A stretch of 64,000 bases of DNA. It comes from Nonlabens tegetincola (GTDB lineage Bacteria > Bacteroidota > Bacteroidia > Flavobacteriales > Flavobacteriaceae). The position numbers were made by a program, and so were the translations under genes. Shown here piece by piece: positions 1 to 64,000 of this stretch. The notes under the pieces are model-generated. The model ran no database searches. It was not told the origin of the DNA and worked only from the letters and a program-made list of their open reading frames with translations. Each line of letters starts with the position of its first letter. The stretch's first letter is position 1. The stretch lies in assembly GCF_002954355.1 (NCBI RefSeq), contig NZ_MQVV01000010.1:620001-684000 (forward strand). Direction: 5' to 3'.

Positions 1-3000
1 TACGGTATACATGTAGGTTATTTTGAAAACATAGAACCGTTAAATGATGATTCTGATAGTATCTTCTTTAATAGTACTTATGATAATACAGTGACCACTT
101 TGGAGTATGATAGACTTCGGTTTTTTGGACTCAATTTTAATAATCCAGGAATTGTAAACAGTAGTTATCTTAAAAACATAAGTCGTAAACATAAGGAGTT
201 AAAACCAAAACAAGGTTTTGTAGTAGGAGTCGTGAGCGATTATGATGGCCCTTTAGTAGGCGCAACAGTGAATGTAAAGGGAACGAATATAGCTACCACT
301 ACAGATTTTGATGGTCGTTATGAAATTGTTGCTCAAAAGGAGGATGTTTTGGTAGTTTCCTATGTAGGTTATGAGAGTAAAGAAATAATGGTAGGAGAGG
401 ATACGGTAATCAATGCATCTTTAAACTCTTCTTTGGATGAGGTTGTAGTTGTAGGCTATAGAACAACTAAAAAGCCGAAATTAACTTCTTCAGTATCTAT
501 AGTTACTTCTGATTCTATTGAGATGCTTCCAAATTCAGAAGTTATTCAAAGATTACAAGGTCAAGTGCCTGGTTTGCAAGTGCAATACTCAAGTGGTCAA
601 CCTGGTGCAAATCCACAGGTTTTAATAAGAGGAATATCATCTGGTCAAAGCAATATATCACCTTTATATATAGTTGATGGTGTTCCTGTGAATAAGGAAG
701 ACTTCAAAGGGCTTAATCCAGATGATATTAAAGAAATCGCAACTCTTAAAGATGCGGCAGCAACATCCATTTATGGTAATCGTGGAGCAAATGGAGTAAT
801 TGTGATATCAACCAAACAAGGTGTTTCAACTGCCGACATTGTTAATCAGGAAATAGAATTAAACAAAGTCAAGGCTAGAAAAAACCTAAAAGAAACTGCC
901 TTTTTCCTGCCACACTTAAAAACAGATAAACAGGGGAATCTTAAAGTAAGTTTTACGAGTCCAGAAATGCTTACCGAATGGAAATTTCGATTACTAGCCC
1001 ATAACAAACAAGGTCAGTTTGCACAACTCACTAAAACAGTGCGGACTCAAAAAGATTTGAGCATTGTTCCCAACGCACCGCGATTCTTAAGAGAAAAAGA
1101 TACCATTAAATTATCTACTAAAATAGCCAACCTTTCTGAGGAGGATTATAACGGTATAGCTCGATTACAATTATCAAGTGCAATTGATGGTTCAAGTATT
1201 GACGATAAATTTAATAATACTAGCGCTACTCAGAATTTTCAGGTAGATGCCGGTGGCAATACATCAGTAGCATGGACTTTTGTAGTCCCAGTAGGAGCGC
1301 CGCCAGTCACTTATAGAATTACTGCAAGTACGGGCAAGTTCTCAGATGGAGAAGAAAATGTATTGCCTGTTCTTACTAATCGCGACTTGGTTACTGAGAC
1401 ACAGTCAATGTGGGTAAGATCAGGTGTTAATAAAAGTTTCATCCTTAGCAATCTTAAAGAGAATAATTCCAGCACTTTAGAACATCATAAACTTACATTA
1501 GAATACACTTCAAACCCTGCATGGTACGCTATTAAAGCCTTACCTTATCTTAAGGAATATGAACACGAGTGTGCCGAACAGACTTTCTCTAGATATTTTG
1601 CCAATGCTACATCGGCACATATTTTAAACAGTCATCCAGAAGTGAAAAAGGTTTTTGACAAATGGGCAGCACTAGACGTTCCTTTATCAAAGTTGGAAAA
1701 GAATGATCAACTCAAATCCATTTTACTTACCCATACTCCATGGGTGCTAGATACGCAGGATGAAAAAGAACAGCTTAAAAGACTAGCAACTTTGTTTGAT
1801 CTGGATCGAACAGCTAGAGAGCAGAAACGTACTTTCAAAAAACTTAAGAAACTTCAAAATAATTCGGGATGGTTCCCATGGTTTAATGGCGGTGCAGACA
1901 ATGAATACATTTCTAGACATATAGTCTCGGGAATAGGTCGAATGGAACAACTGCAAATTAGACATGAAAATCAGGAAGAAATGAGGGCTATGTACGATAA
2001 AGGTGTTCATGCTCTTGATAAAAAATGGGAAAAGCAGTTCAAGAATCATCGTACCAATTATGGTCGTATTACAGATACAACTAAATTTAAAAGTCCTGAG
2101 GACTATAATTTCTATTACGGTTATTGGCATTACCAATATGCGCGCAGCTTTGGGATGTCTCAAAAAAGGCTGAAGCCTGTAACTGGAATTTTAAAGGAGT
2201 ATGAGGATTACGCTTTCGCGAAAGCAAAAACAGAATTTGCAACCCATACCAGGTATCAACAATTATTAATAGCACTTGTTTTACATCGCAATGGCTTTAC
2301 CAATGATGCTCAAAGGATTCTAGAAGGTTTAAAACAAATTGCTATTAATAGCGAGGCAAGAGGAATGTATTGGGAGAATACTAAATACGGCTGGAGATGG
2401 TACAACAATGATGTGAACACTGTTGCACTAGCTATTGAAGCTTTTGCTGAGATTACAGACGATCAAGAAACAGTAGAGTCTTTGAAGGTCTCTTTGATTA
2501 GAAGGGGACGAGCAAATAGATGGGATTCAACAAAGTCTACCGCTATGGCTTGTTACGCCTTATTGTTAAAAGGAGATAACTTCACTAGTATCAGCGCTGA
2601 ACCGCGTATTTATTGGGCAGGCAAAGATGTGATAAATGAAATGCTAAATGAAGACCAGGTTGAAGAGGGAACGGGATATTTTAAAACTAGTATAGACAAG
2701 GAAAAAATATCTAAAGATTATGCAACCGTTACGGTAGATAACAAATCGAGTACTACAGGTTATGGAGCCTTGTACTGGCAATATTTTGAAGACTTAGATA
2801 AGATTAAGGCGCATTCAGGTGATGGTCCACTTAAGGTTAAAAAACAATTATTTAAAAATATTACAAACGATGATGGTACTAGTTTGCAAGAAATCACTCA
2901 AGAAAACCCGGTTAAAATAGGTGATCTTATTACAGTGCGTATTATCATCACGGCGGTAGAGGATATGGAATACATTCACTTAAAGGACATGCGTAGCAGT

Positions 3001-3249
3001 GGCTTTGAACCAGTAGATGTTATTTCAAAGTATAAATGGCAAGATGGTTTAGGATATTATCAAAGTACCAAGGATGTAGCTTCTCATTTCTTTTTTGATG
3101 AAATTGGTAAAGGGACCTATGTATTTGATTATAACGTACGGGCAAACAATGCTGGTCAATTTTCTAATGGAATAACTCGAATAGAATCAATGTATGCTCC
3201 AGAATATGGAAGCCATAGTTCAGGTACTAGAGTAAATATTGTGGAATAA
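1..3249 (+). CDS. alpha-2-macroglobulin family protein with TonB-plug module (5' end outside window)
   Basis: The frame is open from base 1, so the gene starts upstream of the window and the first internal start codon (GTG at 91) is not the true start. About 1082 residues are visible. In order: a carboxypeptidase-D-like regulatory beta domain of SusC type (about residues 70-145, ending in a DEVVVVGY-like motif), a TonB-receptor plug-like domain (about 155-275, with LYIVDGVP and SIYGNRGANGVI), then macroglobulin and thioester-type alpha-helical domains to the end. The thioester motif is intact as CAEQ, with Cys at about visible residue 524. Bacterial A2M proteins trap attacking proteases in the envelope through this thioester. 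No TonB barrel follows the plug, so this is not an ordinary receptor. The role of the plug is unknown; it may dock the protein to an outer-membrane partner. A copy of the 14-bp palindrome encodes AFAKA at 2212. Confidence 0.85.
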   Translation, partial: YGIHVGYFENIEPLNDDSDSIFFNSTYDNTVTTLEYDRLRFFGLNFNNPGIVNSSYLKNISRKHKELKPKQGFVVGVVSDYDGPLVGATVNVKGTNIATTTDFDGRYEIVAQKEDVLVVSYVGYESKEIMVGEDTVINASLNSSLDEVVVVGYRTTKKPKLTSSVSIVTSDSIEMLPNSEVIQRLQGQVPGLQVQYSSGQPGANPQVLIRGISSGQSNISPLYIVDGVPVNKEDFKGLNPDDIKEIATLKDAAATSIYGNRGANGVIVISTKQGVSTADIVNQEIELNKVKARKNLKETAFFLPHLKTDKQGNLKVSFTSPEMLTEWKFRLLAHNKQGQFAQLTKTVRTQKDLSIVPNAPRFLREKDTIKLSTKIANLSEEDYNGIARLQLSSAIDGSSIDDKFNNTSATQNFQVDAGGNTSVAWTFVVPVGAPPVTYRITASTGKFSDGEENVLPVLTNRDLVTETQSMWVRSGVNKSFILSNLKENNSSTLEHHKLTLEYTSNPAWYAIKALPYLKEYEHECAEQTFSRYFANATSAHILNSHPEVKKVFDKWAALDVPLSKLEKNDQLKSILLTHTPWVLDTQDEKEQLKRLATLFDLDRTAREQKRTFKKLKKLQNNSGWFPWFNGGADNEYISRHIVSGIGRMEQLQIRHENQEEMRAMYDKGVHALDKKWEKQFKNHRTNYGRITDTTKFKSPEDYNFYYGYWHYQYARSFGMSQKRLKPVTGILKEYEDYAFAKAKTEFATHTRYQQLLIALVLHRNGFTNDAQRILEGLKQIAINSEARGMYWENTKYGWRWYNNDVNTVALAIEAFAEITDDQETVESLKVSLIRRGRANRWDSTKSTAMACYALLLKGDNFTSISAEPRIYWAGKDVINEMLNEDQVEEGTGYFKTSIDKEKISKDYATVTVDNKSSTTGYGALYWQYFEDLDKIKAHSGDGPLKVKKQLFKNITNDDGTSLQEITQENPVKIGDLITVRIIITAVEDMEYIHLKDMRSSGFEPVDVISKYKWQDGLGYYQSTKDVASHFFFDEIGKGTYVFDYNVRANNAGQFSNGITRIESMYAPEYGSHSSGTRVNIVE
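2212..2225. repeat. palindrome GCTTTCGCGAAAGC, copy 1
   Basis: Perfect 14-bp palindrome inside the A2M-like gene, read in frame as AFAKA. Confidence 0.95.
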
Positions 3250-3851: not shown

Positions 3852-4529
3852 ATGAAGCACCTATTTTTTGTTCTTCTTTTTTGTGTACTGGGCTCTCAAG
3901 ATAAGGGTAAGCTCACAGGGCAGTCACCTAATCCAAACAACTTGTTAGAGATTGAGGCGCAACAGGCATTTGATAGGATGAAAGCTGCTGCATTTAAAGA
4001 TGGTATTGAACTACAAGTTGTCTCTGGCTATCGCAGTTTTGAAAGGCAACAGGCTATATGGAACCGTAAATACAAACGGTATGAAAAGCAAGGTATGTTA
4101 CCCGATGCAATTTTTGATAAAATTGTAGAATACAGTACCGTGCCAGGAACATCACGCCATCATTGGGGTACCGATTTAGATATTATAGACGCTGCTGCTA
4201 CTTATAAAGGCGATGTTCTTGTTCCAAATAAATTTCATGGTAATGGCCCTTTTTGTAAAATGAAAGAATGGATGGAACTTCATGCCAGTAAATATGGATT
4301 TGAATTAGTTTATACCTTGAATGAAAATCGAACTGGATTCAACTATGAACCGTGGCATTATAGTTATGTTCCGCTTTCGCGAAAGCGGTATAAAAAATAT
4401 CTTGAAGAAATTGATCTAATACCTTTTTTACGCAGTCACAAAATATTAGGAATGAATAAAATAAGTGATGGGCGTTTAACTAGGTATCTCGAGGAGCATA
4501 TCAAAGGAATTAATCCAAAATTAAAATAG
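3852..4529 (+). CDS. M15 family (VanY-type) D-alanyl-D-alanine carboxypeptidase
   Basis: A 225-residue exported protein with an N-terminal hydrophobic signal sequence. It has the VanY/M15 zinc motifs: SGYRSFERQQ near residue 57, SRHHWGTDLDI (His and Asp zinc ligands, about 100-110) and EPWHY (third ligand, about 170). The family removes the terminal D-Ala from peptidoglycan stem peptides, so it probably trims cell wall in the periplasm. It begins 3 bp after the GNAT gene. A palindrome copy at 4373 encodes LSRKR just after the last zinc ligand. The substrate stereospecificity is inferred from family membership only. Confidence 0.88.
   Translation: MKHLFFVLLFCVLGSQDKGKLTGQSPNPNNLLEIEAQQAFDRMKAAAFKDGIELQVVSGYRSFERQQAIWNRKYKRYEKQGMLPDAIFDKIVEYSTVPGTSRHHWGTDLDIIDAAATYKGDVLVPNKFHGNGPFCKMKEWMELHASKYGFELVYTLNENRTGFNYEPWHYSYVPLSRKRYKKYLEEIDLIPFLRSHKILGMNKISDGRLTRYLEEHIKGINPKLK
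4373..4386. repeat. palindrome GCTTTCGCGAAAGC, copy 2
   Basis: Inside the M15 peptidase gene, read as LSRKR. Symmetry extends to 18 bp (4371-4388). Confidence 0.95.
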
Positions 4530-6961: not shown

Positions 6962-8023
6962 TTAAGCTAGCAGTTTTGATGCTCCACTACCTATTTGATC
7001 ACAAATATACTGAGAGTTTTGACAATACACAGCCAATTTCTCGTTAATCCATTCATATACAGCAGTTCTGTGATTGTTAGGATACAGTAAATGAACGTTA
7101 GCTCCTGCATCTAGGGTAAAACACACAGGGATTTGCGTTTCTTTTCTATATTTCCAAATTTCTTCGATAATACGCAATGTATTAGGTTTCATTAATATGA
7201 AATAAGGATGAGAAGTCATCATCATTGCGTGTAAAGTGAGCGCTTCGCTTTCAGTGATTTTAATGAAGGTCTCGATATCGCCTTCCTGTAAAGCTTTTTT
7301 AAGTAGAGTAAGATTTTGCGGTGCTTGTTCAAATCTCGCTTTCGCGAAAGCGTGATTATTCATAAGCCCATGACCAACTGTAGAGCTTACCGTTTTTTGA
7401 CCTTTATCGACTAATAGAATAGTGTCGTGATAATTTTGAAACGTGGGATGCAATAATTTTGTTTGATCTACACCATACAAGTTTGAGCTACCTACTGTAT
7501 CATCGTGCTCACCCCAAACGACTAATTGACCTTGTAAACTGCGACAAGCGCTACCAGAACCTAATCTAGATAGGAATGACATTTTATCGTAATCTAAATC
7601 CAAACCAGTAAGTTGAGATTCAAAATCTATAATACAGGCGCTTAATGCAGCCATACTACTTGCGCTACTTGCTATTCCAGAACTGTGTGGAAATGTGTTG
7701 CGAGTATCAATATTGAAATAGTAATTCTTTATCCACGGGCTGTAAGAAGATATACGCTCAAAGAATGCTTTTATTTTGGGTGCAAAATCTGGTTTTTCAA
7801 CACCTTCATATGAAATTTTAAAACCGTGCTCGCCTTTAACAGCGTTTACTGTAGTAATGGTGCGGCAGGCGTTAAGTGTAAAGCTTATAGAGGGATTTGC
7901 GGGCAATTGCATGCCATGCTTTCCCCAGTATTTAACTAGTGCAATATTACTAGGTGCTTGCCATGTAGTAGTTAACGAGGTGATTTCCTTGATCTCTTGT
8001 TGAAGTATGAATTCTGTTTCCAA
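6962..8023 (-). CDS. mvaD: diphosphomevalonate decarboxylase
   Basis: A 353-residue protein with the family signature APSNIALVKYWGKHG (about residues 21-35) and the phosphate-binding loop PHSSGIASSASSMAALS (about 111-127). It converts diphosphomevalonate to isopentenyl diphosphate with ATP. The start is a TTG at 8023; no ATG is available before the conserved N-terminal motif. A perfect flavobacterial -7 motif lies 18 bp upstream, which supports this start and predicts a very short leader. It heads a two-gene operon with mevalonate kinase. A palindrome copy at 7338 encodes AFAKA. Confidence 0.92.
   Translation of the reverse strand: METEFILQQEIKEITSLTTTWQAPSNIALVKYWGKHGMQLPANPSISFTLNACRTITTVNAVKGEHGFKISYEGVEKPDFAPKIKAFFERISSYSPWIKNYYFNIDTRNTFPHSSGIASSASSMAALSACIIDFESQLTGLDLDYDKMSFLSRLGSGSACRSLQGQLVVWGEHDDTVGSSNLYGVDQTKLLHPTFQNYHDTILLVDKGQKTVSSTVGHGLMNNHAFAKARFEQAPQNLTLLKKALQEGDIETFIKITESEALTLHAMMMTSHPYFILMKPNTLRIIEEIWKYRKETQIPVCFTLDAGANVHLLYPNNHRTAVYEWINEKLAVYCQNSQYICDQIGSGASKLLA
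7338..7351. repeat. palindrome GCTTTCGCGAAAGC, copy 3
   Basis: Inside mvaD, read in frame as AFAKA. The 16-bp form is 7337-7352. Confidence 0.95.
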
Positions 8024-12779: not shown

Positions 12780-12793
12780 GCTTTCGCGAAAGC
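12780..12793. repeat. palindrome GCTTTCGCGAAAGC, copy 4
   Basis: Intergenic, between the CorC-like and PpiD-like genes. The 16-bp form is 12779-12794. There is no T-run after it, so it is not a typical terminator. Confidence 0.95.
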
Positions 12794-14125: not shown

Positions 14126-14127
14126 AT

Positions 14128-14906: not shown

Positions 14907-16261
14907 TAAGGAGTAGGTACGGTTACTGATTCACCTACCCAACAGCTGAAGGTGATTCTCTTACCTGCCATACCAGCTAAGAATATATCTTGATTGCTAG
15001 GAGCAACACCGTTGTAACTAGCTGCTGCTTTGGCAGCAGTAGATCTTAAAGTAGGGTCTACACTAGCTGCTTTGTTTGCATATCTTGCTGCAATCCAGTT
15101 AACAGCTCTTTTTTCAAAAGGAGTGTTACCACAGCTGTTTGTACTTTGCGCTACCATACCTGCGATTCTTAAGAATGGTAATCCAAATGATGGTTTTGCT
15201 TGATTAGCAAGAATATATTCTCTTTTTGCTTTACCAAAAGAACCTTGCTTTCTTAAAAGTTCAGCTTTTTTGTAGTGAATATTTGCTACATATTTCTGGT
15301 CGATCCCTAGTGAAAGAGCTTCATCCCAGTACTTCAGTTTTTCAGCATTAGTTTTTGCGATGTTACCTAAACCATATGCAGTCATTGCACTAGGTTGTAA
15401 CTCGTGTAAAGCTTTTACAGAATTTACATATAAATCACTTTCTGTACAATCTTTCTTTTGTAACCTTCCAAGTACATTCTTTAACCAAGACATGTTTGAT
15501 TTGTTTGCATCAAAATCTTTTGAGTAAAGTGGGATTAAGTTATCACAGTCTGCAAGACTTCCAATAGTACCATTTACACTTTTCATTACGATACCATAGT
15601 TTTTCAAGTTTTTTTCTTGATTTTCTATGTTTTTCTTTTCGTCCTCTGTAATTGTTCCTTCTGCTTCCTTGTCTAATAGTTCAGATACTATCTTACTTCT
15701 CTCATTAGAAACATTGTCTAAATGTTCTGTTAGTGCATCGTAAACATTAAAAAGGTCTTCAAGGTTAAGAGCGTTTGCCTTATATTCCTTTTCAGCAAGT
15801 TTGAAATAGGTTATCAATCCATTAGGATCTGTAAAGTCTTCCTTTCCACTTGTAAAGGTTTCATTTAAATAGTTAAATTGATCAGACTGAGTACCTTGTT
15901 TGTACTTGTACATTACTCGACCTAGTTCAACTTTTTTCTTAGTAACGTTAATTTTATCGGCATACTTGTTAATTTGAGTTTCAAGCATGTTCATTAAACC
16001 TTTAACGTTCTCGTTTTGATCACCGATTTTTTTCTTCAATCTGTGCTCGTATATTCTTTCACCGTATTGATAAATAGCAGGGCTGGCATCTGGACAGTTC
16101 TGTACTAGCTGACCTAATTGCTTGTATGCTTCATCATAATTTTTTGCTTTAGCGTTTTCGGCATAGATGCTAAGCATCGTGTTGCAGTCTCCTGATTGCG
16201 CTTTCGCGAAAGCGAATCCCAAAACAACTAAGCTGAATAAAATGGTGTTTTTAAGTTTCAT
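14906..16261 (-). CDS. exported TPR-repeat protein
   Basis: A 451-residue protein with a signal peptide (residues 1-22) whose cleavage site is AFAKA followed by Q, encoded by a copy of the 14-bp palindrome. The mature part is helical and rich in Lys, Ala and Asn, with TPR-like units near residues 24-60 and 295-370. It lies between an outer-membrane barrel gene and lptC, which suggests an envelope role, perhaps as a scaffold in outer-membrane assembly. No enzymatic motif is visible, and its function is not known to me. Confidence 0.75.
   Translation of the reverse strand: MKLKNTILFSLVVLGFAFAKAQSGDCNTMLSIYAENAKAKNYDEAYKQLGQLVQNCPDASPAIYQYGERIYEHRLKKKIGDQNENVKGLMNMLETQINKYADKINVTKKKVELGRVMYKYKQGTQSDQFNYLNETFTSGKEDFTDPNGLITYFKLAEKEYKANALNLEDLFNVYDALTEHLDNVSNERSKIVSELLDKEAEGTITEDEKKNIENQEKNLKNYGIVMKSVNGTIGSLADCDNLIPLYSKDFDANKSNMSWLKNVLGRLQKKDCTESDLYVNSVKALHELQPSAMTAYGLGNIAKTNAEKLKYWDEALSLGIDQKYVANIHYKKAELLRKQGSFGKAKREYILANQAKPSFGLPFLRIAGMVAQSTNSCGNTPFEKRAVNWIAARYANKAASVDPTLRSTAAKAAASYNGVAPSNQDIFLAGMAGKRITFSCWVGESVTVPTP
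16200..16213. repeat. palindrome GCTTTCGCGAAAGC, copy 5
   Basis: Encodes the AFAKA of the TPR protein signal-peptidase site. The 16-bp form is 16199-16214. Confidence 0.95.
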
Positions 16262-21794: not shown

Positions 21795-24700
21795 ATGAAG
21801 CACTTTTCTTTAATTTTACTAATTCTAAGTTTTTTTGTGCCCAAAGCTCAAAATATCGATGAACAACTAACTTGGATTGATAATTATACTTATTCTATTA
21901 ATGGCGAGGATATTGTCATGCCATATTGTGGAGATAACTGCTCTTTAATTGAAACCGGGTTAGTGTTTCACAAAAATTATATAGATATCCCGCTTGCTCA
22001 ACCAGGATCAGCACAGGTGGTTTCTGTACAAAAAACGGTCATTCCCGATTCTAATGTTGGTTTTTTAAGGACGTTGACGCTTCCTTCTCAATTTGAAGTT
22101 TTTTTAGAAACTTCGCTTTCGCGAAAGCGTAATTATACCACACTAAAAGTTCCAGTAATTTTAAAGGAAGGTTCAAATTATTACAAAGTAACAGGTTTTC
22201 AAATTTCCTATAGAGAAAGAACGGCTGCTTTATTGCCTAAAAATACTACCTATGGTAATTCCTTATTAGCATCTGGGGAATGGTTTAAGTTTCAGGTTAA
22301 TAATACAGGTGTTCACAGAATTACTAGAGGTTTTTTATCTAGTTTGGGTATGGATGTTAATAGTATAGATCCATCTAGATTAAAAATTTACGGTCAGGGC
22401 GGAAGGTCATTGCCACTAGCTAACAATGAAAATTTATATTACGATCCTGCGGAGATTCCTATAAGAGTAATTGGTGAATCTGATGGAAGTTTTGATTCGG
22501 GTGATGAAATTTTATTTTATGCTACAGCGAGTGATACTGAATATGTTGAGGAAAATGATAGTTTTATCAATCCATACTCCGACGAGTCTATTTATTACAT
22601 CACAGCTCAAGGTAATCCTGGAAAAAGGATTTTAAGTGCTATACAGCCTACCGGGAATGTTACTGTAACTTATACAGATTATGATAAGGTTTATCACCAT
22701 GAGGTGGATGAACGCAATATCGCAGCTTTAGGTAGGACATGGTATGGTGAGAGATTTTCATTTGAACCAGATCAAAGCTTCGAATTTGACCTGGATAATG
22801 TAAACACGGCTAGAGATGCCAGGGTTATTGTCAAAACAGCATCTATATCTGATACTCCTGTTTCGTTTGAGATTTCTTATAACAATTCTGTAATTGGGAC
22901 GAGTAATTTAACGGGCTTAGTTATTGGTGGTCAGCGTTCAAATATTTTTGCTGGAAGAACCGCTACTTTTAATTCAAGTTTTAATCCGATGAGTGGAACA
23001 GCTATTATAGATTTATCTTTTGATAATGGTGGCAATCCAGGAGCTCGTGGGTTTTTGAATTATATAAGGTTAAACGTACCTACTTTATTGCAAGGTACTG
23101 GTGAACAGTTCGTTTTTCAAAACACTGACGCTTCAACCAACACCGGTATTGGAGAATATCAGATATCTAATGCAGCTACTATAAACGAAATCTGGGATAT
23201 TACAGATCCATTTAACACCACTAGAATTGTCAATTCAAATAATCAATCAACTTTTTCTTTTAAATCTTCATTAGGGTCACCACGTCAATTTGTTGTTGTT
23301 GAGGATGGGGATTATTTCCCGGTTATTAGAATGAATGAGTCTAGAGTACAAAATAGTAACCTTAAAGGAACAGTTTTTTTAGACAATGCAGGTACTTTTA
23401 AAGATATAGATTACTTAATTATTACTCCGCAGTTTTTAAAATCTCAGGCAGATAGATTAGCTAACTTCCATATCCTAGAGAATAATTTAAATACAAAGGT
23501 TGTTACTCTTCAGGCGATTTATGATGAGTTTTCTAATGGAATGCAGGATATTTCTGCTATAAGAAATTTCATCAAGTATGTTTATGATAATGCATCGTCA
23601 CCAGCAAATAGATTACAATTTGTAAATCTTTTTGGTGATGCCAGTTATGATTATAAGGATAGAATAAGTGTTAGAGATAATATTGTTCCCATTTATTTGA
23701 GTGAGTCCAGTGTGTCGTTAATCACCAGCTATGCGCTAGATGATTTTTTTGTTTTAATGGACGATAATGAAGGTAATGTTGGTGTAAATGGAGGATTGCC
23801 TGATATTGCTGTAGGAAGAATGATTGTAAGTGATCTTACAGAAGCACGTGAAATGGTAGATAAAGTAATTTCCTATCAACAAGAACCTGCATTTGATCCT
23901 TGGAGAAACAGGGTGACGTTAATTGCAGATGATGTTGATGAATTAGGTGATAGAGTTCTACAAGAAAGCGTTAATCAATTAGCGACTGAAATTGCCACAA
24001 ATAGGCCAGACTTAAACGTTGATAAAATTTTACTCGATAGTTATATTCAGGTTAACAATGCTGGTGGTCCTAGGTATCCTGCAGCTGTATCTAATATAGA
24101 AGATGCTTTTGAAAGAGGTTCTTTGGTAGTTAATTATTTTGGGCATGGAAATGAAGATGGACTTGCTCGTGAGTTTGTTATTACTCAAAATTCTGCTAGG
24201 GATTATAGGAATCCTAATAATTTACCTTTATTCATAAGTGTGACTTGTGAGTTTACTAGATTTGATAATCCACTGCGAGAAAGTGGTGGAGAGGTGATAT
24301 ACCTTAACCCTAATGGTGGCGTAATCGCCTCGGTTGCGACAAATAGACTTATTTTAATTAGTGCAGGTACAAGGTTGAACGAGGTACTCGATCAATATTT
24401 GTATGATTACAATAATACGGTGCAGGTAAGCATGGCAGAGGCGTTGAGAAGAGCCAAGGTAGATCCTGCCTTTGGTAGTTTAACTGGAGCAAGAGTTGTC
24501 GCCTTTGTAGGAGATCCAGCGTTAAAACTAGCCTCTCCAAAACCTCAAGTGATTCTTACCGCAGTTAACGGTGTGCCGGTTTCTGGTCCTACTTCAACCT
24601 TACGAGCTTTAGATAGGGTTACACTAAGTGGTGAGGTTCAGGACATTGCAGGAGCTCGAATCAATAACTATAATGGTACTGTTTCTGTAACGGTATTTGA

Positions 24701-27462: not shown

Positions 27463-27476
27463 GCTTTCGCGAAAGC
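27463..27476. repeat. palindrome GCTTTCGCGAAAGC, copy 7
   Basis: In the predicted 5' leader of pdhA, 21 bp before the start codon. The 16-bp form is 27462-27477. Confidence 0.95.
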
Positions 27477-38329: not shown

Positions 38330-41083
38330 TTACTTGATATATAGTTTGTTTTGAGATATTCTTCCATTTAAACTAGCTTGAACAAAGTATAGTCCAGATT
38401 TAAGATCAGAGATATCATAATTTATAGTTTCATGCTCAAATGTTTTCACTACCTGACCTAATGTGTTATAGATTATTACTTGGTCTATTTCAGTATCGCT
38501 TTGAATGTTGAAACTACTTTGAGCTGGATTAGGGTAAATAATGAAAGACGATTTTAACTGTTCCTGAACTTCTTCATTACTCAACGGATTATTAAGAGGA
38601 GTTGTGGTGTACAATTTGTACTCTCCAGGTTGCAATGAAATTCCAGTAGTAGTATTAGTAACGTTCACAACCGCATTGTTATTGAAGTAATCATACCAAA
38701 CTCCTGTTTGTTGAAAATTAGGATTTGCTGTTTGCGCAGTTACTGCAAAATTTGCTAGAACTACTGCATCAAAATTAGGTCCATTTAAATTGATGGTTTT
38801 AACCAGCCCAGAAACATTTAAGTTATTGTTTGTATTGTTAAAAGTTTCAGGATATAAGGTTTTAAAGTTTATAAATGTAGCTGTTGCATCATATACGTCT
38901 AATCGATCCTGGTCAGTATCGTATCCTAATGTCCAAGCTACTGGTTTGCGACCTGTTCTACCATTTTGGTCTATGTCAATTTCATATCCTAGCTCACCAA
39001 ATTGCCAAAGCATTTTAGGTCCAGGAATGCTGTAAAGAATTGCTGAAATGGCTTCTTGTCTATCCAATGCTACAGGAACATTTTGAACGTTATGAGAAGA
39101 GTTTGCAGCATTACCAAATTGTAAGTTTTTATACATTAATCGTTGCTCGTCGTGACTCTCTGCATAGGCTATAAGATGCTGGTCATTGAAACTTCTTGAT
39201 GTGTAATAACTTCTAAAGACATTGGAATTAGATGAGAATCCCATGCTGTTTTGATTGAATTCGTCGGTCATTTTTCCCCAAAGCATAAATCCATCATTGG
39301 CTAGTGCGGCTTCCTCATTTTGTCCTCCTAAGTGTTCAAGAATCATGTATATGTCGTTAGAATTATTGTTCCAGATAGTATTCTTATAATCATTCAGAAT
39401 ATTGACTCTACTTTGGTCATAAGCATTCCAAGCACCAATATTTCCTAGGGTATTGTTTTGGGTAAAACCTTTAGATAAATCAAATCTAAAACCGTCAATT
39501 TTATATTCATCTATCCAATATTGTAGGGTTTGTTTAACGTAGTCTCTAGTCCAATTACTTTCATGATTGAAATCATATCCTACATTGAAATCGTGTCTAG
39601 CAGTCGGATTTAAATAGGGATTATTTGCTGCTGGTCTAAAATTTGCTTGATCCCACCACATTTGACATAGTGGGCTTTGAGAGAAGGCATGATTATAAAC
39701 AACATCTAGTATAACAGCGATACCTTTTGAATGACATAAATCTACCAGTTCCTTAAATTTTACAGGAGTTCCGTAGGTTTTATCAATAGCCATGTGGAAC
39801 TTAGGGTTGTAACCCCAACTATCTGCTCCTTCAAATTCATTTAGGGGCATGAATTGAAGAGCATTAATACCTAAATCGGCTAGGTAATCTATTCTATTAA
39901 TTATTTCTTGGTAGCTATCGTTTTCAGAAAAATCTCGTACCAAAATTTCATAAATAACTAAATTTTCTTGATCTGGACGTTGAAAATTAGTCACATTCCA
40001 ATTATAAGGAGTAGCTTGATAGGTCCATAGCGATATATCTCCTGTAGTCTCTCCCGTAGGATAAGGATAAATGTTATCAAAATTACCAGGCTTAATGAAT
40101 TGGTCAAATCCATTATCCAGAATCAAACGACTATATGGATCGGCTATCTTAATACTGTAATCTACTAAGTATTGATAGGCAAACTCAGTTCCTGCAGAAA
40201 ACTGTGTAGAAGGAACGGTAACCCAAAAATAATCACCATCCTTATTCATTTGATAAGGAAGATCCAAATCCCAATTGCTGAAGCTTCCTAAAAGCATTAC
40301 ATCTGTTTTGCCTGGTGCTGCTAATAAGAAAGTAACACTACCGTCCGCATTTTCATTCACACCGTTTTTCAATCCTGCTGGTCTAGCAATACTTTGTGTA
40401 GTATTTGGTACATAAACCGATACTTGATCGGTAACTGTTGTTGTTCCATTATCTGCATTAACTGCAATTGTGTAATTGCCTGGATTTGAAAATGTGTATG
40501 AAGTAGAAATACTAGAACCACTTGTTGTCGCTACACTATTTCCATTTACGGCAAGATCTAATGTTGCGTTTTGGGTACAGTCTGCACTTAGGTTTATGGT
40601 TTGGTTTAAATTTATAATCTCACCGTCCTGTGGGCTGGTGATTGAAGTGTTTAAACCAGGTAGGAAAACGTCTATAAAAATATCGGGTGATGTTTGATTA
40701 GTTCCTGCAGCGTTTCTTATAACCAGACAAATTTCTGAGATTACGTCTCCTGGCTGTGCGTTGTAAAAAGTTTCTAAAGTTCCTGGTAAGGTTGCTTGAT
40801 ACATGTTACCGCCAGTATTGACAAACTGTGGTTGAGCAGTGTTGTCACCCCAGTTTCCTACTACATTGGACCAGCGTGTTCCATTAATGTTGGCTCCTGT
40901 GTGAGCATAAAAATTTCCAGATTCGTTTTCTAAAGGAGTTCCTGTTGCATCAAATATTAGTGTTACTTGATCTTGTTGTGTAGGTATTGATGGGTTTGTG
41001 GTTACTTGCGCTTTCGCGAAAGCGAACCCAAAAATCACAGCTAATAAAAGGTAAAAGTTTTTCATAGAATTAATCGTTATCAA
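38330..41083 (-). CDS. secreted alpha-amylase (GH13) with CBM48-like domain and T9SS sorting tail
   Basis: A 917-residue protein with a signal peptide ending AFAKA followed by Q (palindrome copy 11), beta-sandwich and Ig-like N-terminal regions, a CBM48-like domain (about 245-335, MLLGSFSNWDLDLPYQM) and a GH13 barrel from about 370. The conserved regions are VILDVVYNHAF (I), DGFRFDLSKGF (II, nucleophile Asp), MILEHLGG (III, acid Glu) and AESHDEQRL (IV). The C-terminal 75 residues from FIIYPNPAQSSF to LYIK are a type A T9SS sorting domain. It should cut starch at the cell surface or outside. It lies downstream of the SusCDE-like genes after a terminator. Confidence 0.93.
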   Translation of the reverse strand: MITINSMKNFYLLLAVIFGFAFAKAQVTTNPSIPTQQDQVTLIFDATGTPLENESGNFYAHTGANINGTRWSNVVGNWGDNTAQPQFVNTGGNMYQATLPGTLETFYNAQPGDVISEICLVIRNAAGTNQTSPDIFIDVFLPGLNTSITSPQDGEIINLNQTINLSADCTQNATLDLAVNGNSVATTSGSSISTSYTFSNPGNYTIAVNADNGTTTVTDQVSVYVPNTTQSIARPAGLKNGVNENADGSVTFLLAAPGKTDVMLLGSFSNWDLDLPYQMNKDGDYFWVTVPSTQFSAGTEFAYQYLVDYSIKIADPYSRLILDNGFDQFIKPGNFDNIYPYPTGETTGDISLWTYQATPYNWNVTNFQRPDQENLVIYEILVRDFSENDSYQEIINRIDYLADLGINALQFMPLNEFEGADSWGYNPKFHMAIDKTYGTPVKFKELVDLCHSKGIAVILDVVYNHAFSQSPLCQMWWDQANFRPAANNPYLNPTARHDFNVGYDFNHESNWTRDYVKQTLQYWIDEYKIDGFRFDLSKGFTQNNTLGNIGAWNAYDQSRVNILNDYKNTIWNNNSNDIYMILEHLGGQNEEAALANDGFMLWGKMTDEFNQNSMGFSSNSNVFRSYYTSRSFNDQHLIAYAESHDEQRLMYKNLQFGNAANSSHNVQNVPVALDRQEAISAILYSIPGPKMLWQFGELGYEIDIDQNGRTGRKPVAWTLGYDTDQDRLDVYDATATFINFKTLYPETFNNTNNNLNVSGLVKTINLNGPNFDAVVLANFAVTAQTANPNFQQTGVWYDYFNNNAVVNVTNTTTGISLQPGEYKLYTTTPLNNPLSNEEVQEQLKSSFIIYPNPAQSSFNIQSDTEIDQVIIYNTLGQVVKTFEHETINYDISDLKSGLYFVQASLNGRISQNKLYIK
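41010..41023. repeat. palindrome GCTTTCGCGAAAGC, copy 11
   Basis: Encodes the AFAKA of the amylase signal-peptidase site. The 16-bp form is 41009-41024. Confidence 0.95.
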
Positions 41084-46915: not shown

Positions 46916-46929
46916 GCTTTCGCGAAAGC
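46916..46929. repeat. palindrome GCTTTCGCGAAAGC, copy 12
   Basis: Intergenic, 55 bp before the lacI-type gene. The 16-bp form is 46915-46930. Its sequence differs from the AACGTT core of the operators nearby. Confidence 0.95.
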
Positions 46930-52510: not shown

Positions 52511-54427
52511 ATGATTAGACTGAAACAAGTTCATATTGTAAGTTTATTATTTGTGATTTTCGCTTTCGCGAAAGCGATCTCACAACAATCATCCATAGAC
52601 CGCATTGAACCACCATTCTGGTGGGCAGATATGGAACATGCCGAGGTTGAGGTAATGTTTTATGGACAAAATATTGGAAAAGCTGAGGTCAAAAGTGATT
52701 TACCAATCCTTAAAATACGAAGAACTGAAAACTTGAATTATCTCTTCGTTACATTTGACACGACAAATCAAAATCATGGAGAATACGCTATCACCATGAA
52801 TGTAGGAGACACTTACTTTACCTCTAAATATGAACTCAAGAAGCGCAGTCTAAATTCAAAGTATCGAAAAGGTTTTGATAGCAGTGACGCCATTTATCTT
52901 TTAATGCCAGATCGATTTGCAAATGGAAATCCAGAAAACGATAGTCATCCAGAAACTATTGAAAAACTAAATAGAAGTTTTAAAGGTGGTAGACATGGTG
53001 GTGATATACAAGGTATTATTGATCATCTAGATTACATTAGTGAATTGGGAGCTACCGCAATATGGAGTACTCCATTACTAGAGGATAATGATAAACAGTA
53101 TTCCTATCATACCTATGCGCAAAGTGATTTATATAAAATTGATCCTCGCTATGGTACCAATGAAGATTATAAACGATTAGCCAGTGAATTACATAAGCGT
53201 GATATGAAATTGATTATGGATTATGTGACAAATCACTGGGGTGCAACGCACTGGATGATGCAAGATTTACCAACGGCGACATGGATTCATCAATTTGATG
53301 ATAACGACGGTAAGGAATTTCCAGTTCCTGGGTATGCAAATTCTAGCTATAGACAAACCACACAAATGGATCCAAATAAATCTCAAATTGACGATACCTA
53401 TGCCGAGAAAGGTTGGTTTGTAAGTACCATGCCAGATATTAATCAAAGTGAACCATTAGCTCTAAATTATCTTATCCAAAACGCTATATGGTGGATTGAG
53501 TATGCAGATTTAGATGGATTCAGAGTAGATACCTATTCCTATAATGAAAAGAAAGGAATCGCAGACTGGACCAAAGCTATCATGAAGGAATATCCGTATT
53601 TTAATATCGTAGGAGAAACCTGGATGCATGATCAATCACAAATAGCTTTTTGGCAAAAGGATAGTCCTATAGGAGCTATTCAAAGTTATAATTCAGGATT
53701 ACCTAGTGTTATGGACTTCACTTTACACGATGCAATTATGAAAGCATTTAAAGAGAACGACCAGCAATGGGATAAGGGAATGGTAAGAATTTATGAGAAC
53801 TTTGTAAATGATTTCCTATATGCAGATGTCAACAATATTTTACTATTCGCTGGTAATCATGATACAAATAGAATCAATGGTGATGGATTATATGATGGCG
53901 ATGTAAATAACTATAAACTGGCTTTGACACTAGTTCTTACCGCTCGTGGAATACCTCAAATTTATTATGGCGATGAAATAGGAATGGGAGGAAATCGTGA
54001 TACCAGTGGTGATGGTGATATACGTCGCGACTTTCCTGGTGGCTGGCAGGATGATGAAGTAAATGCCTTTAAAAAAAGAACAAAGTTCCAAAAACCATTC
54101 TATGAATTTACTAAAAAGCTACTGAATTATAGAAAAGGAAAACCTGTTCTACACGACGGTAAGTTTTTACATTATGTGCCAGAAAACAATTGTTATGTAT
54201 ATTTTAGATACTCTGATTCTAGCAGAGTAATGGTGGTGATCAATAACAATCCTGAAAAAGTAACTTTAAATTTAGATAGGTTTAAAGAAGGATTACAAGA
54301 TGTTAATGAAGGCCTAGATATACTCTCAGGAAAAAAGATAGATATGGGAAATACGTTATCTGTTTCGGGTAAAACTAGTATGGTCATCGATCTTGATAAA
54401 CCTAAAAAAGGACCTCGCTTTTTCTAA
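52511..54427 (+). CDS. periplasmic GH13 alpha-glucosidase/neopullulanase (SusA-like)
   Basis: A 638-residue protein with a signal peptide ending AFAKAISQ (palindrome copy 13). A cyclomaltodextrinase-type N-terminal domain (about 30-120, IDRIEPPFWWADMEHAEVEV) leads into a GH13 barrel. Regions: LIMDYVTNHWGATHW (I), DGFRVDTYSYNE (II), NIVGETWMHD (III) and FAGNHDTNR (IV). All catalytic residues are present. As with SusA, it probably degrades imported maltodextrin in the periplasm. It starts 62 bp after maltose phosphorylase, beyond a terminator. Confidence 0.92.
   Translation: MIRLKQVHIVSLLFVIFAFAKAISQQSSIDRIEPPFWWADMEHAEVEVMFYGQNIGKAEVKSDLPILKIRRTENLNYLFVTFDTTNQNHGEYAITMNVGDTYFTSKYELKKRSLNSKYRKGFDSSDAIYLLMPDRFANGNPENDSHPETIEKLNRSFKGGRHGGDIQGIIDHLDYISELGATAIWSTPLLEDNDKQYSYHTYAQSDLYKIDPRYGTNEDYKRLASELHKRDMKLIMDYVTNHWGATHWMMQDLPTATWIHQFDDNDGKEFPVPGYANSSYRQTTQMDPNKSQIDDTYAEKGWFVSTMPDINQSEPLALNYLIQNAIWWIEYADLDGFRVDTYSYNEKKGIADWTKAIMKEYPYFNIVGETWMHDQSQIAFWQKDSPIGAIQSYNSGLPSVMDFTLHDAIMKAFKENDQQWDKGMVRIYENFVNDFLYADVNNILLFAGNHDTNRINGDGLYDGDVNNYKLALTLVLTARGIPQIYYGDEIGMGGNRDTSGDGDIRRDFPGGWQDDEVNAFKKRTKFQKPFYEFTKKLLNYRKGKPVLHDGKFLHYVPENNCYVYFRYSDSSRVMVVINNNPEKVTLNLDRFKEGLQDVNEGLDILSGKKIDMGNTLSVSGKTSMVIDLDKPKKGPRFF
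52562..52575. repeat. palindrome GCTTTCGCGAAAGC, copy 13
   Basis: Encodes AFAKA at the signal-peptidase site of the SusA-like enzyme. The 16-bp form is 52561-52576. Confidence 0.95.
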
Positions 54428-54479: not shown

Positions 54480-56828
54480 ATGAAAAATTTAATTTATGTA
54501 TTGCTGGTTTTTCTTTTCGTAAGTTGTTCATCAAACGAAAAAGAGCAATACGATACTAGATCAAGTGTCATAAAAACCATTACCACTCCTATCTATGCTG
54601 GTCAAGATAAAACCGAAGTGGTTTTGACTGACTACATTACTGATGTTACTATTATTGATAGTATTACCTATGGTAATGGCGTAACTGGTGTAGAAGAAGT
54701 CGATAACAATGAAAGTATTAAGATTATTCTAGAAGAAAATGCACCGTTTGTATCATTGATCACTTTATGGACTGATGGAATACGCAATGATATACCTGTC
54801 TATAAGTCAATGTCTAAAACTATACCTATCAATTATTATGGTGATGCTAATAATGAAAACGTACAGCTTAAAGGAGAATTTACTAATTGGGCGCCTGTAG
54901 ATCTTGAAAAAGAAGGTAATAGATTAGTCTATCATGCCACTGTTCCACAAGGAAAGTTTCAGTATATTTTCATGAAAAATGGACAGGAGGAACTGCTTTC
55001 AGGTCAGGAGGAAGATGTGGTAAGCAATGGAATGGGTGGCTTCAATCGAGTGCTAGATAATAGTCGTAAGGCTGCTCCAGCCAGATTGCAATATGGTGAA
55101 GTAATTGAAAGTGGTTTTACCTTTAATGCAACAGGTCAACTAGATAATGTTCTTGTTTTATTTGAAAACCAACTTATAGATTTTCAAAAAGAAGGAAACA
55201 GGTACCAAGTTAAATTGCCAAAAAAAGATTTTACAAACAATATTCACCACACACAACTAGTTCGCGTTTTTGCAAGCGATAATAATGGTCGCTCAAATGA
55301 TTTACTGATTCCTGTTCAGGATGGTCATGTGGTAACTGAACCTTCTAGATTAACTCGCAGCGATTTTCATAATCAAGTACTTTATTTTATGATGGTAGAT
55401 CGCTTCCTAGATGGCGATACTAGTAATACAAAACCAGTTGATGATCCAGAGATATTACCACAAGCAAATTATAAAGGTGGAGATCTTGCAGGTGTGCTAC
55501 AAAAATTGAAAGAAGGTTATTTCAGTAAAATGGGAATCAATACCATATGGCTGTCGCCAATTACTCAAAACCCTGAAGGAGCTTATGGTCTATGGCCAGA
55601 GCCTAAAACTAAATTTAGTGGTTATCATGGTTATTGGCCTGTGTCTAATACAAAAATTGATTATCGATTTGGTGATGAGAAAACTTTGAAAGCATTGATT
55701 GACGAGGCTCACAAGCAAGATGTTAATGTTATACTAGACTATGTGGCAAATCACGTTCATAAAGAACATCCGGTTTATCAAGAACACCCAGAATGGGCTA
55801 CTGATTTATATCTGCCAGATGGCAGTTTAAATACTGAAAGATGGGACGATCATAGATTAACCACTTGGTTTGATACGTTTATGCCTACGCTGGATTTAGA
55901 GAATCCCGAGGTGACTGAGGTTATGGTTGACAGTGCCTTGCATTGGGTGACAAATTATCAATTAGATGGTTTTAGACACGATGCTACAAAGCATGTTCCA
56001 GAGCTGTATTGGCGTACATTAACTAAGAAAATTAAAGAACAAACAAATAGGCCTATATATCAAATTGGAGAAACTTATGGATCTTACGACCTTATACGCA
56101 GCTACGTGAGTACCGGTATGCTAGATGCACAATTTGATTTCAATATGTATGATGCTGCTGTTTCCGCTTTCGCGAAAGCGGACAATTCCTACGGTAATTT
56201 AACCGAGATATTGCAAAAAGGTCTCGACTATTACGGTTACCACCATTTAATGGGGAACATCTCGGGTAATCAAGATCGCGCTCGTTTTATAAGTTACGCA
56301 AGTGGTGATGTGAAATTTGAAGAAGACGCTAAAGCTGCTGGATGGACTCGCGATATAGGTATGAGTGATGAATCATCTTATGGTAGACTGGCAATGTTAC
56401 ACGCTTTTAATATGACGATTCCAGGAGTTCCAGTAATCTATTACGGAGATGAATATGGTAGTATAGGGGCAAACGATCCTGATAACCGTAGAATGATGAA
56501 ATTTGATAATCTATCAAGCAATGAACAAGAACTTAAAAATCAAGTAAAATCACTTGTGTATTTACGACGTAATTCGATGAGTCTATTGTATGGTGATACC
56601 GAGATTTTATCAGATGCAAATGGTATATTAGGAATAAAAAGAACTTATTTTAACGAAACAACCTATATATTCTTTAATGAAAATAAGATTTCATTAAATG
56701 CTTACAAGCGCAATGACAAGGAAGAGGTGAAAATTGTGATCAATGGTATAGAAGACCCTAATTACATACAGGTAAAGCCTGAATCCTTTACAATCGTGCA
56801 AACTAAAAAGGTACCAATAAAACAATAA
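54480..56828 (+). CDS. GH13 amylase-family lipoprotein with atypical region IV
   Basis: A 782-residue lipoprotein (lipobox LFVSCSSN, Cys17). The frame reaches an ATG at 54447; I choose ATG 54480 because it gives a normal lipoprotein signal. A CBM-like N-terminal part (about 105-190, VQLKGEFTNWAPVDLEKEG) precedes a GH13 barrel. Regions: VILDYVANHVHKEHP (I), DGFRHDATKHVPE (II), IYQIGETYGSYD (III). Region IV reads ISGNQDRARF, with Gln where most GH13 have His. The nucleophile and acid remain, so activity is likely. A palindrome at 56166 encodes AFAKA. Confidence 0.88.
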   Translation: MKNLIYVLLVFLFVSCSSNEKEQYDTRSSVIKTITTPIYAGQDKTEVVLTDYITDVTIIDSITYGNGVTGVEEVDNNESIKIILEENAPFVSLITLWTDGIRNDIPVYKSMSKTIPINYYGDANNENVQLKGEFTNWAPVDLEKEGNRLVYHATVPQGKFQYIFMKNGQEELLSGQEEDVVSNGMGGFNRVLDNSRKAAPARLQYGEVIESGFTFNATGQLDNVLVLFENQLIDFQKEGNRYQVKLPKKDFTNNIHHTQLVRVFASDNNGRSNDLLIPVQDGHVVTEPSRLTRSDFHNQVLYFMMVDRFLDGDTSNTKPVDDPEILPQANYKGGDLAGVLQKLKEGYFSKMGINTIWLSPITQNPEGAYGLWPEPKTKFSGYHGYWPVSNTKIDYRFGDEKTLKALIDEAHKQDVNVILDYVANHVHKEHPVYQEHPEWATDLYLPDGSLNTERWDDHRLTTWFDTFMPTLDLENPEVTEVMVDSALHWVTNYQLDGFRHDATKHVPELYWRTLTKKIKEQTNRPIYQIGETYGSYDLIRSYVSTGMLDAQFDFNMYDAAVSAFAKADNSYGNLTEILQKGLDYYGYHHLMGNISGNQDRARFISYASGDVKFEEDAKAAGWTRDIGMSDESSYGRLAMLHAFNMTIPGVPVIYYGDEYGSIGANDPDNRRMMKFDNLSSNEQELKNQVKSLVYLRRNSMSLLYGDTEILSDANGILGIKRTYFNETTYIFFNENKISLNAYKRNDKEEVKIVINGIEDPNYIQVKPESFTIVQTKKVPIKQ
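56166..56179. repeat. palindrome GCTTTCGCGAAAGC, copy 14
   Basis: Inside the GH13 lipoprotein gene, read as AFAKA. Symmetry extends to 18 bp (56164-56181). Confidence 0.95.
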
Positions 56829-60952: not shown

Positions 60953-60966
60953 GCTTTCGCGAAAGC
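60953..60966. repeat. palindrome GCTTTCGCGAAAGC, copy 15
   Basis: Between arsS and the arsM-type gene. The 16-bp form is 60952-60967. Confidence 0.95.
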
Positions 60967-63037: not shown

Positions 63038-63039
63038 AG

Positions 63040-64000
63040 TTAGATCTTTTTTACATCCAAGGCATCACGTAGAGCATTACCTAATAACATGAATGCCATT
63101 ACAAGCGTCATGATTGCGATACCAGGAATAATTGCAAGATAGGCCTTATCTAGAATTATGTATTGATAATGGTCCTTTATCATACTACCCCAACTGGGCA
63201 TGGGTGGCTGCGCACCAATTCCTAGAAAACTAAGTCCGCTTTCAATGAGAATAGCTGCCGCAAAATTTGCGGCACTTATTACAATGATAGGCGCTGTTAT
63301 GTTGGGTAAAATGTGTCGGGTAATAATACGCCAGTCATTAAATCCCAAAGCTCTAGCTGCGGTTACATACTGATATTCTTTGGCTACTATAACTTGACCG
63401 CGTACAACTCTCGCAACTTCAACCCACATAGTTAAGCCTACCGCTATAAAAACGGTAAAAAAACTTTTTTCCAAGGCTATACTTATTGCTATTACCATCA
63501 ATAGGGTAGGGATAGACCAAGTTACATTTATCAACCACATAATGGCGTTGTCTATTTTACCGCCGTAATATCCTGCAATTGCTCCTAATGACATTCCAAT
63601 TAATAATGAAATAAGAACAGCAATAAAGCCTATTGATATGCTAATACGTGCTCCTATGAGCATACGGCTTAATAAATCGCGGCCATATTTATCAGTTCCT
63701 AGTAGAAAGGTCTTTGTTGCGGTTGCGCTTTCGCGAAAGCGTGTCATATCCATCACTTTGCCCCATTCATGCATCACTGGCTGGTAAGGTTTTACCTCAT
63801 TGTCAGGATCAAAAGGAGTATAATGAATTATACCATCGATCAATTTAAGTTTAGTAAATGGAATTTCTTCTACAGTTGATGTGCTACCGGATAAAAAGGA
63901 CCAAAAATTAGAATCTTCCTTTTGTATAGGTAAAATCATCATTTTAGTAGAAAATCCAGGTGGTTGCGAATGAATGGAAAGATGCATTTGATTAGCATTG
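63040..64000 (-). CDS. OppC/DppC-type peptide ABC transporter permease (5' end outside window)
   Basis: The frame stays open to the window edge, so the gene starts beyond base 64000; about 320 residues are visible. After an extracytoplasmic stretch (QMHLSIHSQPPGFSTK) come five or so membrane segments and the EAA loop AARALGFNDWRIITRHILPN, the contact site for the ATPase. FLGIGAQPPMPSWG and NALRDALDVKKI are typical OppC endings. It forms half of an oligopeptide or dipeptide import channel. A palindrome copy at 63727 is read as RFRES. Confidence 0.88.
   Translation of the reverse strand, partial: NANQMHLSIHSQPPGFSTKMMILPIQKEDSNFWSFLSGSTSTVEEIPFTKLKLIDGIIHYTPFDPDNEVKPYQPVMHEWGKVMDMTRFRESATATKTFLLGTDKYGRDLLSRMLIGARISISIGFIAVLISLLIGMSLGAIAGYYGGKIDNAIMWLINVTWSIPTLLMVIAISIALEKSFFTVFIAVGLTMWVEVARVVRGQVIVAKEYQYVTAARALGFNDWRIITRHILPNITAPIIVISAANFAAAILIESGLSFLGIGAQPPMPSWGSMIKDHYQYIILDKAYLAIIPGIAIMTLVMAFMLLGNALRDALDVKKI
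63727..63740. repeat. palindrome GCTTTCGCGAAAGC, copy 16
   Basis: Inside the OppC-like gene, read in the third frame as RFRES. The 16-bp form is 63726-63741. Confidence 0.95.

Follow-up and report, generated by a model that had tools for sequence, protein, structure and literature searches.

DNA uptake sequences have been described in two bacterial families, Pasteurellaceae and Neisseriaceae, and biased DNA uptake is the established process that leaves such marks (PMC7811141). In Pasteurellaceae (e.g., Haemophilus influenzae), the uptake signal sequence (USS) occurs in hundreds to thousands of copies with relatively even spacing, consists of a core and weaker flanking tracts, is less frequent in coding sequence, and is found in temperate but not in likely lytic phages (PMC7811141, PMC6776037); the DNA uptake sequence (DUS) of Neisseriaceae is read by the pilin ComP (PMC3868556). 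HIP1 of cyanobacteria, a highly iterated GC-rich palindrome found within and between genes, is 8 bp long and tied to methyltransferases (PMC4390886). Here, we describe GCTTTCGCGAAAGC, a perfect 14-bp palindrome that is repeated in a 64,000-nt stretch of Nonlabens tegetincola (hereafter, the window) and throughout the genome of this bacterium (G000), and which we tentatively interpret, with close to even confidence, as a DNA-uptake-signal-type self-recognition tag spread by biased DNA exchange. The palindrome shares with the USS the copy number, spacing, flanking tracts, relative avoidance of coding sequence, and, apparently, accumulation in temperate phages, with the DUS its exactness across the genomes of related genera, and with HIP1 its high iteration as a GC-rich palindrome inside and outside genes. 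It differs from the USS in its density (about one per 5 kb, as compared to about one per kb), its palindromic 14-bp core, and its dyad-symmetric flanks, and from HIP1 in its length (14 to 16 bp), its extended flanks, and the lack of a common enzyme of the two methyltransferase families tested.

Enrichment and anatomy of the palindrome

The window contained 16 exact copies of GCTTTCGCGAAAGC, as compared to none in each of 100 dinucleotide shuffles, and a search allowing one or two mismatches still returned 16, with no near-copies in the window. C and G flanks extended 13 of the 16 to a 16-bp palindrome, CGCTTTCGCGAAAGCG; TTCGCGAA also occurred 16 times in the window, every time within the motif. 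Eleven copies were located inside open reading frames (ORFs) and five between them. These counts agree with a preliminary description of the window, which had reported the 16 copies, the 13 flanked forms, and the division between genes and intergenic DNA, and had put the expectation for such a 14-mer far below one. The whole genome carried 577 copies in 3,028,293 bases (3.03 Mb), while the same pattern read backwards, used as a control, was absent from this genome; the control was absent from 396 of 397 family genomes and occurred once in the remaining one. In a 400,886-base sample of the genome, 81 copies were observed where Markov models of order 0 to 5, trained on motif-masked sequence, gave an expectation of at most 0.00061; an order-5 model with the motif left in the training gave 0.48. 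The Markov expectation and the reversed-pattern control thus rule out a composition artefact. There was no sign that copies keep to a single region of the 720-kb contig sampled, and the comparison of a genome count with a Markov expectation, proposed as a check in the preliminary description, revealed an excess that is genome-wide and not confined to the window. That description did not include the symmetric flanks, the even spacing, the copies in temperate phages, or the narrow taxonomic range reported below.

Exact, one-mismatch, and two-mismatch copies numbered 81, 16, and 3, respectively, in the 400,886-base sample, 43, 8, and 12 in 160 kb of a Dokdonia genome (G206), and 21, 12, and 10 in 220 kb of G190, a motif-rich genome of a third genus (GC content 0.46; L056–L059, L258–L264). 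G190 had more one-mismatch copies relative to exact ones (12:21, as compared to 16:81 and 8:43) and, as described below, weaker flanks; whatever maintains the motif may have weakened or disappeared in this genome. The flanks of the palindrome were dyad-symmetric, with C at −1 (0.90) and T at −3 and −4 (0.77 and 0.70) in N. tegetincola; the 5′ flank was C-poor and T/G-rich to about −18 and its 3′ mirror A/C-rich, resulting in a whole site of about 50 bp. Three congeners and Dokdonia presented the same flank pattern, which was weaker in G190. T or G accounted for about 0.7 of positions −18 to −3 in both 102 coding (0.70) and 56 noncoding copies (0.68), as compared to 0.51 genome-wide; because it is equal in coding and noncoding copies, this pattern does not stem from codon use. 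A transcription terminator, already dismissed in the preliminary description, could be rejected since the 3′ flank is A/C-rich and not T-rich on both strands and 54 of the 81 sampled copies lie inside ORFs, although this was the case for only 7 of 18 copies in one congener (G242).

The mutated copies bear on an origin similar to that of HIP1, in which DNA methylation plus mismatch repair would make and keep the palindrome. Both motifs are highly iterated GC-rich palindromes, and deviations from HIP1 favour the end bases (PMC4390886), as did five of eight one-mismatch copies in Dokdonia and two of three in G242. In N. tegetincola, however, only one of 16 one-mismatch copies was changed at an end base, while 13 were transitions, eight of them T-to-C changes of the fifth base; in G190, the end base was hit in three of 12 copies and five of the 12 were transitions. 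Moreover, G242, with 664 copies of the motif, had no match to PF00145 or PF01555, G190 had none to PF00145, and G000, G206, and the congener G394 had none to PF01555; neither of these two families, searched to cover C5 and N6/N4 methyltransferases, was thus common to the six motif-rich genomes. We consider this origin highly improbable. Among the three analogies drawn in the preliminary description (HIP1, DNA uptake, and chromosome organisation), HIP1 fits worst, with no match to two main methyltransferase families in G242, and the uptake signal fits best.

Spacing, birth, and retention of copies

Copies of the palindrome are evenly spaced. On the large contig of N. tegetincola, 145 gaps in two stretches had coefficients of variation (CV) of 0.475 and 0.486, as compared to about 0.98 for random placement, and none of these gaps was shorter than 1,400 bp (minimum 1,407 bp), although 19.6 and 16.4 such gaps (about 36) were expected. 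Gaps below 1.4 kb numbered 0 of 17 in G242, 1 of 13 in G010 (also a congener), 0 of 15 in G394, and 0 of 18 in G190 (2.5 expected). A toy model of saturating drive, in which a site is favoured only when the fragments covering it hold no second site, came near these data in two of 24 parameter sets (fragments of 3–4 kb), with 689 and 563 sites per 3 Mb, CVs of 0.43 and 0.42, and less than 1% of gaps under 1.4 kb; this model is silent on which process carries the bias. Copies were also located preferentially outside ORFs as defined by a simple ORF caller (27 of 81 in N. tegetincola, where 6.7% of bases are noncoding), with 11 of 18 in G242, 5 of 16 in G394, 5 of 14 in G010, 13 of 43 in Dokdonia, and 3 of 21 in G190 (noncoding fractions 0.067–0.127). 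The longest motif-free gap seen (14.3 kb; L253 5600–19890, G000:C10:55.6–69.9 kb) contains, by eye, an apparent SOS mutagenesis cassette (LexA-like, DinB-like, and a second DnaE) and mutS. Another gap of 11.7 kb (L037 7605–19261, G000:C10:527.6–539.3 kb) contains a respiratory-chain-like operon (an oxidase and a quinol-oxidising complex) and ruvB, as would be expected if constrained genes accept few tags.

Retention of the motif is position-specific. Eight of nine aligned sites were intact between N. tegetincola and G394, as compared to 1,202 of 42,082 other 14-mers (2.9%), and nine of nine between G242 and G010 (30.9% of other 14-mers); intact aligned sites were fewer between N. tegetincola and G242 (1 of 2) or G010 (1 of 5), and between G394 and G242 (0 of 1) or G010 (1 of 5). 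In some alignments of noncoding copies, the motif itself may have served as the anchor. Among 11 comparisons with a relative whose aligned site lacks the motif, ten differed by a score of 1–4 and one (the gapped copy at 52562) by 6; four of the 11 concern the copy in the DNA polymerase III alpha gene (dnaE), with a small shift in the nucleotide alignment and none in the protein. The copies in dnaE and in ORF 54447–56828 aligned without a protein gap with relatives in which this copy is missing, as did a copy in a phage terminase gene with that of the Winogradskyella phage Peternella_1, while gapped alignments (52562, and 41010 against G394) fall in variable signal peptides; for the other copies inside genes of the window, this comparison yielded no aligned relative. 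These comparisons indicate that, where this can be judged, copies were born in place by substitution and not by insertion. A repetitive extragenic (REP) or other mobile palindrome was rejected, as dnaE, ORF 54447–56828, and the phage terminase show no clean insertion; the preliminary description had likewise held that the motif is no mobile element, which the comparable conserved genes (dnaE and ORF 54447–56828) bear out.

The individual copies in the window are given in Table 1. Where the motif lies in a gene, the peptides AFAKA, LSRK, and FRES recur because the DNA motif encodes them and not because of a protein function. The copies at 16200, 41010, and 52562 encode (F)AFAKA within apparent signal peptides, at the hydrophobic end.

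Table 1. Copies of the 14-bp palindrome in the window (positions in the window; "16-bp" denotes copies with C and G flanks; signal peptides and the gene product of the first row were assigned by eye).
Feature	Positions	Strand	Flanks	Location	Peptide	State at aligned place in congeners
Motif copy	2212..2225	.	C/A, not 16-bp	large ORF (TonB-plug/alpha-2-macroglobulin-like)	AFAKA	
Motif copy	4373..4386	.	16-bp	ORF 3852-4529	LSRK	
Motif copy	7338..7351	.	16-bp	ORF 6962-8023	AFAKA	
Motif copy	12780..12793	.	16-bp	intergenic		
Motif copy	16200..16213	.	16-bp	apparent signal peptide of ORF 14906-16261	GFAFAKAQ	
Motif copy	22115..22128	.	16-bp	ORF 21795-25643	LSRK	
Motif copy	27463..27476	.	16-bp	intergenic		
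Motif copy	31261..31274	.	16-bp	intergenic		intact in G394
Motif copy	34766..34779	.	T/G	DNA polymerase III alpha gene (DnaE, 31791-36137)	LSRK	intact in G394; substitutions and no protein gap in G242 and G010
Motif copy	36946..36959	.	A/G	ORF 36368-37051	LSRK	
Motif copy	41010..41023	.	16-bp	apparent signal peptide of ORF 38330-41083		intact in G394 and G010
Motif copy	46916..46929	.	16-bp	intergenic		intact in G394; one mismatch in G010
Motif copy	52562..52575	.	16-bp	apparent signal peptide of ORF 52511-54427		not intact in G394 (gapped alignment)
Motif copy	56166..56179	.	16-bp	ORF 54447-56828	AFAKA	intact in G394; four substitutions in G010
Motif copy	60953..60966	.	16-bp	intergenic		three mismatches in G010
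Motif copy	63727..63740	.	16-bp	ORF 63040-63987	FRES	

Taxonomic range and copies in phages

High copy numbers are restricted to a few genera. At least one copy was found in 80 of the 397 family genomes (N. tegetincola included), with 577, 578, 664 (G242), and 609 copies in all four genomes drawn from its own genus (apparently Nonlabens), 857 in Dokdonia (G206), and 408 in G190; the hundreds of copies in three congeners, Dokdonia, and G190 answer the comparison with related genomes suggested in the preliminary description. The other 391 family genomes have 0–19 copies, including two genomes of one genus, G076 and G287 (16 and 19), G051 (17), and a further 71 with 1–9. Across 395 genomes of the order (a draw without G190, G242, and G394), the 16-mer was rich only in the same genus and in Dokdonia (464, 495, and 630 copies), with 12 copies in G076 and 0–3 in all remaining genomes. 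A 22-bp extended form was found in at least 117 stretches of species-representative contigs (L105–L221); among the matches listed, all belong to Dokdonia or Nonlabens save strain BBFL7 and one Flavobacteriaceae metagenome-assembled genome. DnaE sequences from 41 genomes gave a tree in which the motif-rich six fall in two groups (the genus of N. tegetincola, and G190 with Dokdonia); the motif may still have a single origin.

Many of the low counts elsewhere in the family are clustered, and we interpret them as acquired from motif-rich donors. For G076, all ten listed copies of the 16-mer (of 12) are located on one contig (G076:C3, about 32–120 kb; partly L224 and L272) and are spaced as in motif-rich hosts; this stretch is likely a large transferred island. 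All four copies of G078 lie in a copper and heavy-metal resistance island (L063, G078:C1:2820001-2840000, 6985–17735) that contains, by eye, genes for P-type ATPases, a CusA-like pump, a multicopper oxidase, and a TolC-like protein. The 933-bp distance between two of these copies is found again in G087, G101, and G215, suggesting that one copper island, originating in a motif-rich donor, has moved between genera. A search for dialects, low-powered as it covered one 20-kb stretch (that of G341 with 96 N) in each of 20 other genomes from 17 genera, found no other repeated palindrome of at least 10 bases; the stretch of G076 held the same motif. An 8-mer palindrome, TTGGCCAA, does not look like a second tag: it occurred 11 times in 20 kb of G201 (L236) and six times in 20 kb of G215 (L229), where maximal-order expectations were 9.2 and 5.4, and these counts look like codon use.

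The palindrome is also present in temperate phages. When 2.9 million viral contigs were searched for the 16-mer, it occurred in 41 stretches, which belong to 30 contigs; within these stretches, 18 of the contigs had at least two copies of the 14-mer, and seven of the 12 single-copy contigs have a GC content above 0.5 and may represent chance. One multi-copy group is Mu-like, with terminase and portal genes (L084) as well as a Mu-type transposase, MuB, and a CI-like repressor (L073, which has one motif copy and its flanks in common with L104 of the same phage). Another consists of siphophages with portal, capsid, and tape measure genes (L094) and an integrase (L072, capsid 99% the same), and a third contains the same kinds of head genes. 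Stretches picked around matches held six copies in 27.9 kb and four in 18.5 kb, a selection that overstates density, while stretches picked by terminase or capsid held 0.153 (Mu-like) and 0.172 (siphophage) copies per kb, as compared to 0.202 in the N. tegetincola genome.

Relatives of these phages lack the motif. Grouped by capsid, five near-identical motif-bearing loci had 14 copies in 81,415 bases, 24 siphophage relatives (46–58% identity; one cluster of similar sequences) had none in 238,147 bases, and six more distant relatives had none in 66,061 bases; grouped by terminase, three identical loci had seven copies in 45,701 bases, two at 74% identity had four in 43,018, and one at 34% had none in 16,659. 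Peternella_1, which is transposable and related to the Mu-like group (terminase identity 54.5%), and the Cellulophaga phage phi39:1 had no copies even with two mismatches allowed. The same was found for two phages of a Nonlabens (Persicivirga) strain that have no annotated integrase, a comparison that presumes a motif-bearing host strain; these two count as one lineage because they are about 98% identical over 32 kb. The motif is therefore not a property of a phage family; most likely, it follows the host of the phage, the hosts of metagenomic contigs being presumed here. A comparable pattern is described for Pasteurellaceae, where temperate phages accumulate uptake sequences and large, likely lytic ones do not (PMC6776037).

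The phage copies bear on two alternatives to a tag spread by biased exchange. In the first, an internal nucleoid protein would bind the dyad every 4–5 kb and space loops or domains, with host selection keeping the sites. This would fit the even spacing and near-absence of short gaps, the dyad symmetry with its long symmetric flanks, the strong retention, and the lack of any sign that copies keep to a single region of the 720-kb contig. Sites bound by ParB (parS) and Noc are 14–16-bp palindromes with TTTC...GAAA half-sites, which the half-site of the motif resembles, although the spacer of the motif is two bases shorter and its copies are far more numerous. However, no extra ParB or Noc paralog was found, with just one ParB_N match in each of the six motif-rich genomes, and roughly 600 individually selected 14-bp sites would presumably impose a heavy selective load. 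Furthermore, temperate phages carry the motif in their own structural genes at near host density, which host-level selection explains poorly. We consider this explanation rather unlikely, but the most probable of the alternatives. In the second alternative, a nuclease or other defence system would spare tagged DNA, and temperate phages would copy the tag to pass. The tag in temperate phages is consistent with this, but the two phages isolated on the Nonlabens (Persicivirga) strain, if that strain bears the motif, lack it, and we know of no defence system that spares tagged DNA; such self-marking seems to us very improbable indeed.

A proposed uptake-type tag and its implications

For a tag spread by biased DNA exchange, we propose that a sequence-specific reader, probably dimeric given the dyad symmetry over the full length of about 50 bp, would favour fragments with one copy of the tag for import and recombination, so that tagged alleles would replace untagged ones. 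Copies would arise by point mutation where a protein or spacer tolerates them, mutated copies would be restored, and accumulation would stop once each fragment of a few kb holds one tag. Phages resident in the chromosome would share this DNA traffic and gain the tag, while strictly lytic phages would not. Uptake as the biased step presupposes that these species are naturally competent; any process would fit that favours tagged alleles, reaches saturation over a few kb, and operates on chromosomal and prophage DNA. ComEC was found in 31 of 32 genomes and DprA in 20 of 20, including all six motif-rich ones. In the same family, Riemerella columbina is competent and prefers its own DNA, and the study reports only AT-rich k-mers of up to 10 bases (PMC7965970).

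Several observations weigh against an uptake tag. ComEC and DprA are also present in motif-free genomes and are thus uninformative, and the type IV pilus/type II secretion platform family PF00482, the only pilus family searched, had no match in five of the six motif-rich genomes, which sets the motif apart from both USS and DUS and suggests that the machine reading known uptake sequences is absent there. No gene for a reader of the motif was found in this analysis; together with the lack of PF00482 matches in five of six genomes, this leaves membership among the USS and DUS unproven. No record of competence in Nonlabens or Dokdonia was found in the open literature. Copies of the USS are often close together (PMC7811141), while the strict 1.4-kb exclusion seen here is sharper than the toy model would need; spacing in Dokdonia was in turn less strict, with 4 of 42 gaps below 1.4 kb (13.8 expected) and a minimum of 449 bp. 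G190 presented no noncoding excess. The idea that long motif-free gaps are foreign DNA is unsupported, given the conserved-looking operons and SOS cassette recognised there by eye. Few independent lineages enter the phage comparison, in which the hosts of metagenomic phages are presumed. Finally, neither USS nor DUS is known to be palindromic.

Recombination could itself be the biased step if the palindrome were a hotspot similar to Chi, which an AddAB-type nuclease would recognise on either strand before switching to recombination, favouring the site wherever DNA is repaired. PF12705 (AddB-like) matched in all 20 genomes searched, and most of them had an additional match of AddA size; the density of the motif resembles that of Chi in E. 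coli, and the motif-free Nonlabens phages encode recombination proteins of their own (ERF and YqaJ). Known Chi sites, however, are 5–8 nt, non-palindromic, and strand-biased, unlike a perfect 14-bp palindrome, the PF12705 nuclease is also present in motif-free relatives, and even spacing would not be expected; we thus regard a Chi-like site as improbable.

No mention of the 14-mer or 16-mer was found in the open literature (most subscription papers and preprints were outside the search), nor was anything on such a motif found in the literature on Nonlabens and Dokdonia, in keeping with the preliminary description, which knew of no function in flavobacteria. A genome-wide self tag would be of a known kind, while one in Bacteroidota that is palindromic, has symmetric flanks, and does without the usual pilus would be a new form of it. 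It is possible, though less likely than not, that the palindrome represents the first uptake sequence in Bacteroidota and, of all such sequences, the first palindromic one, read by a dimeric receptor other than a type IV pilin and hence pointing to a separate DNA-import machine in marine flavobacteria. The AFAKA, LSRK, and FRES peptides in proteins of these bacteria could wrongly pass for protein motifs. Its presence may help to identify phages living as prophages in these hosts, as well as islands derived from such hosts, and adding the tag to constructs might ease transformation of these marine bacteria. If an uptake-type tag is the correct interpretation, this third, independent, and palindromic case, in Bacteroidota, would show that such marks of biased DNA exchange occur more widely, and it would indicate a new reader.

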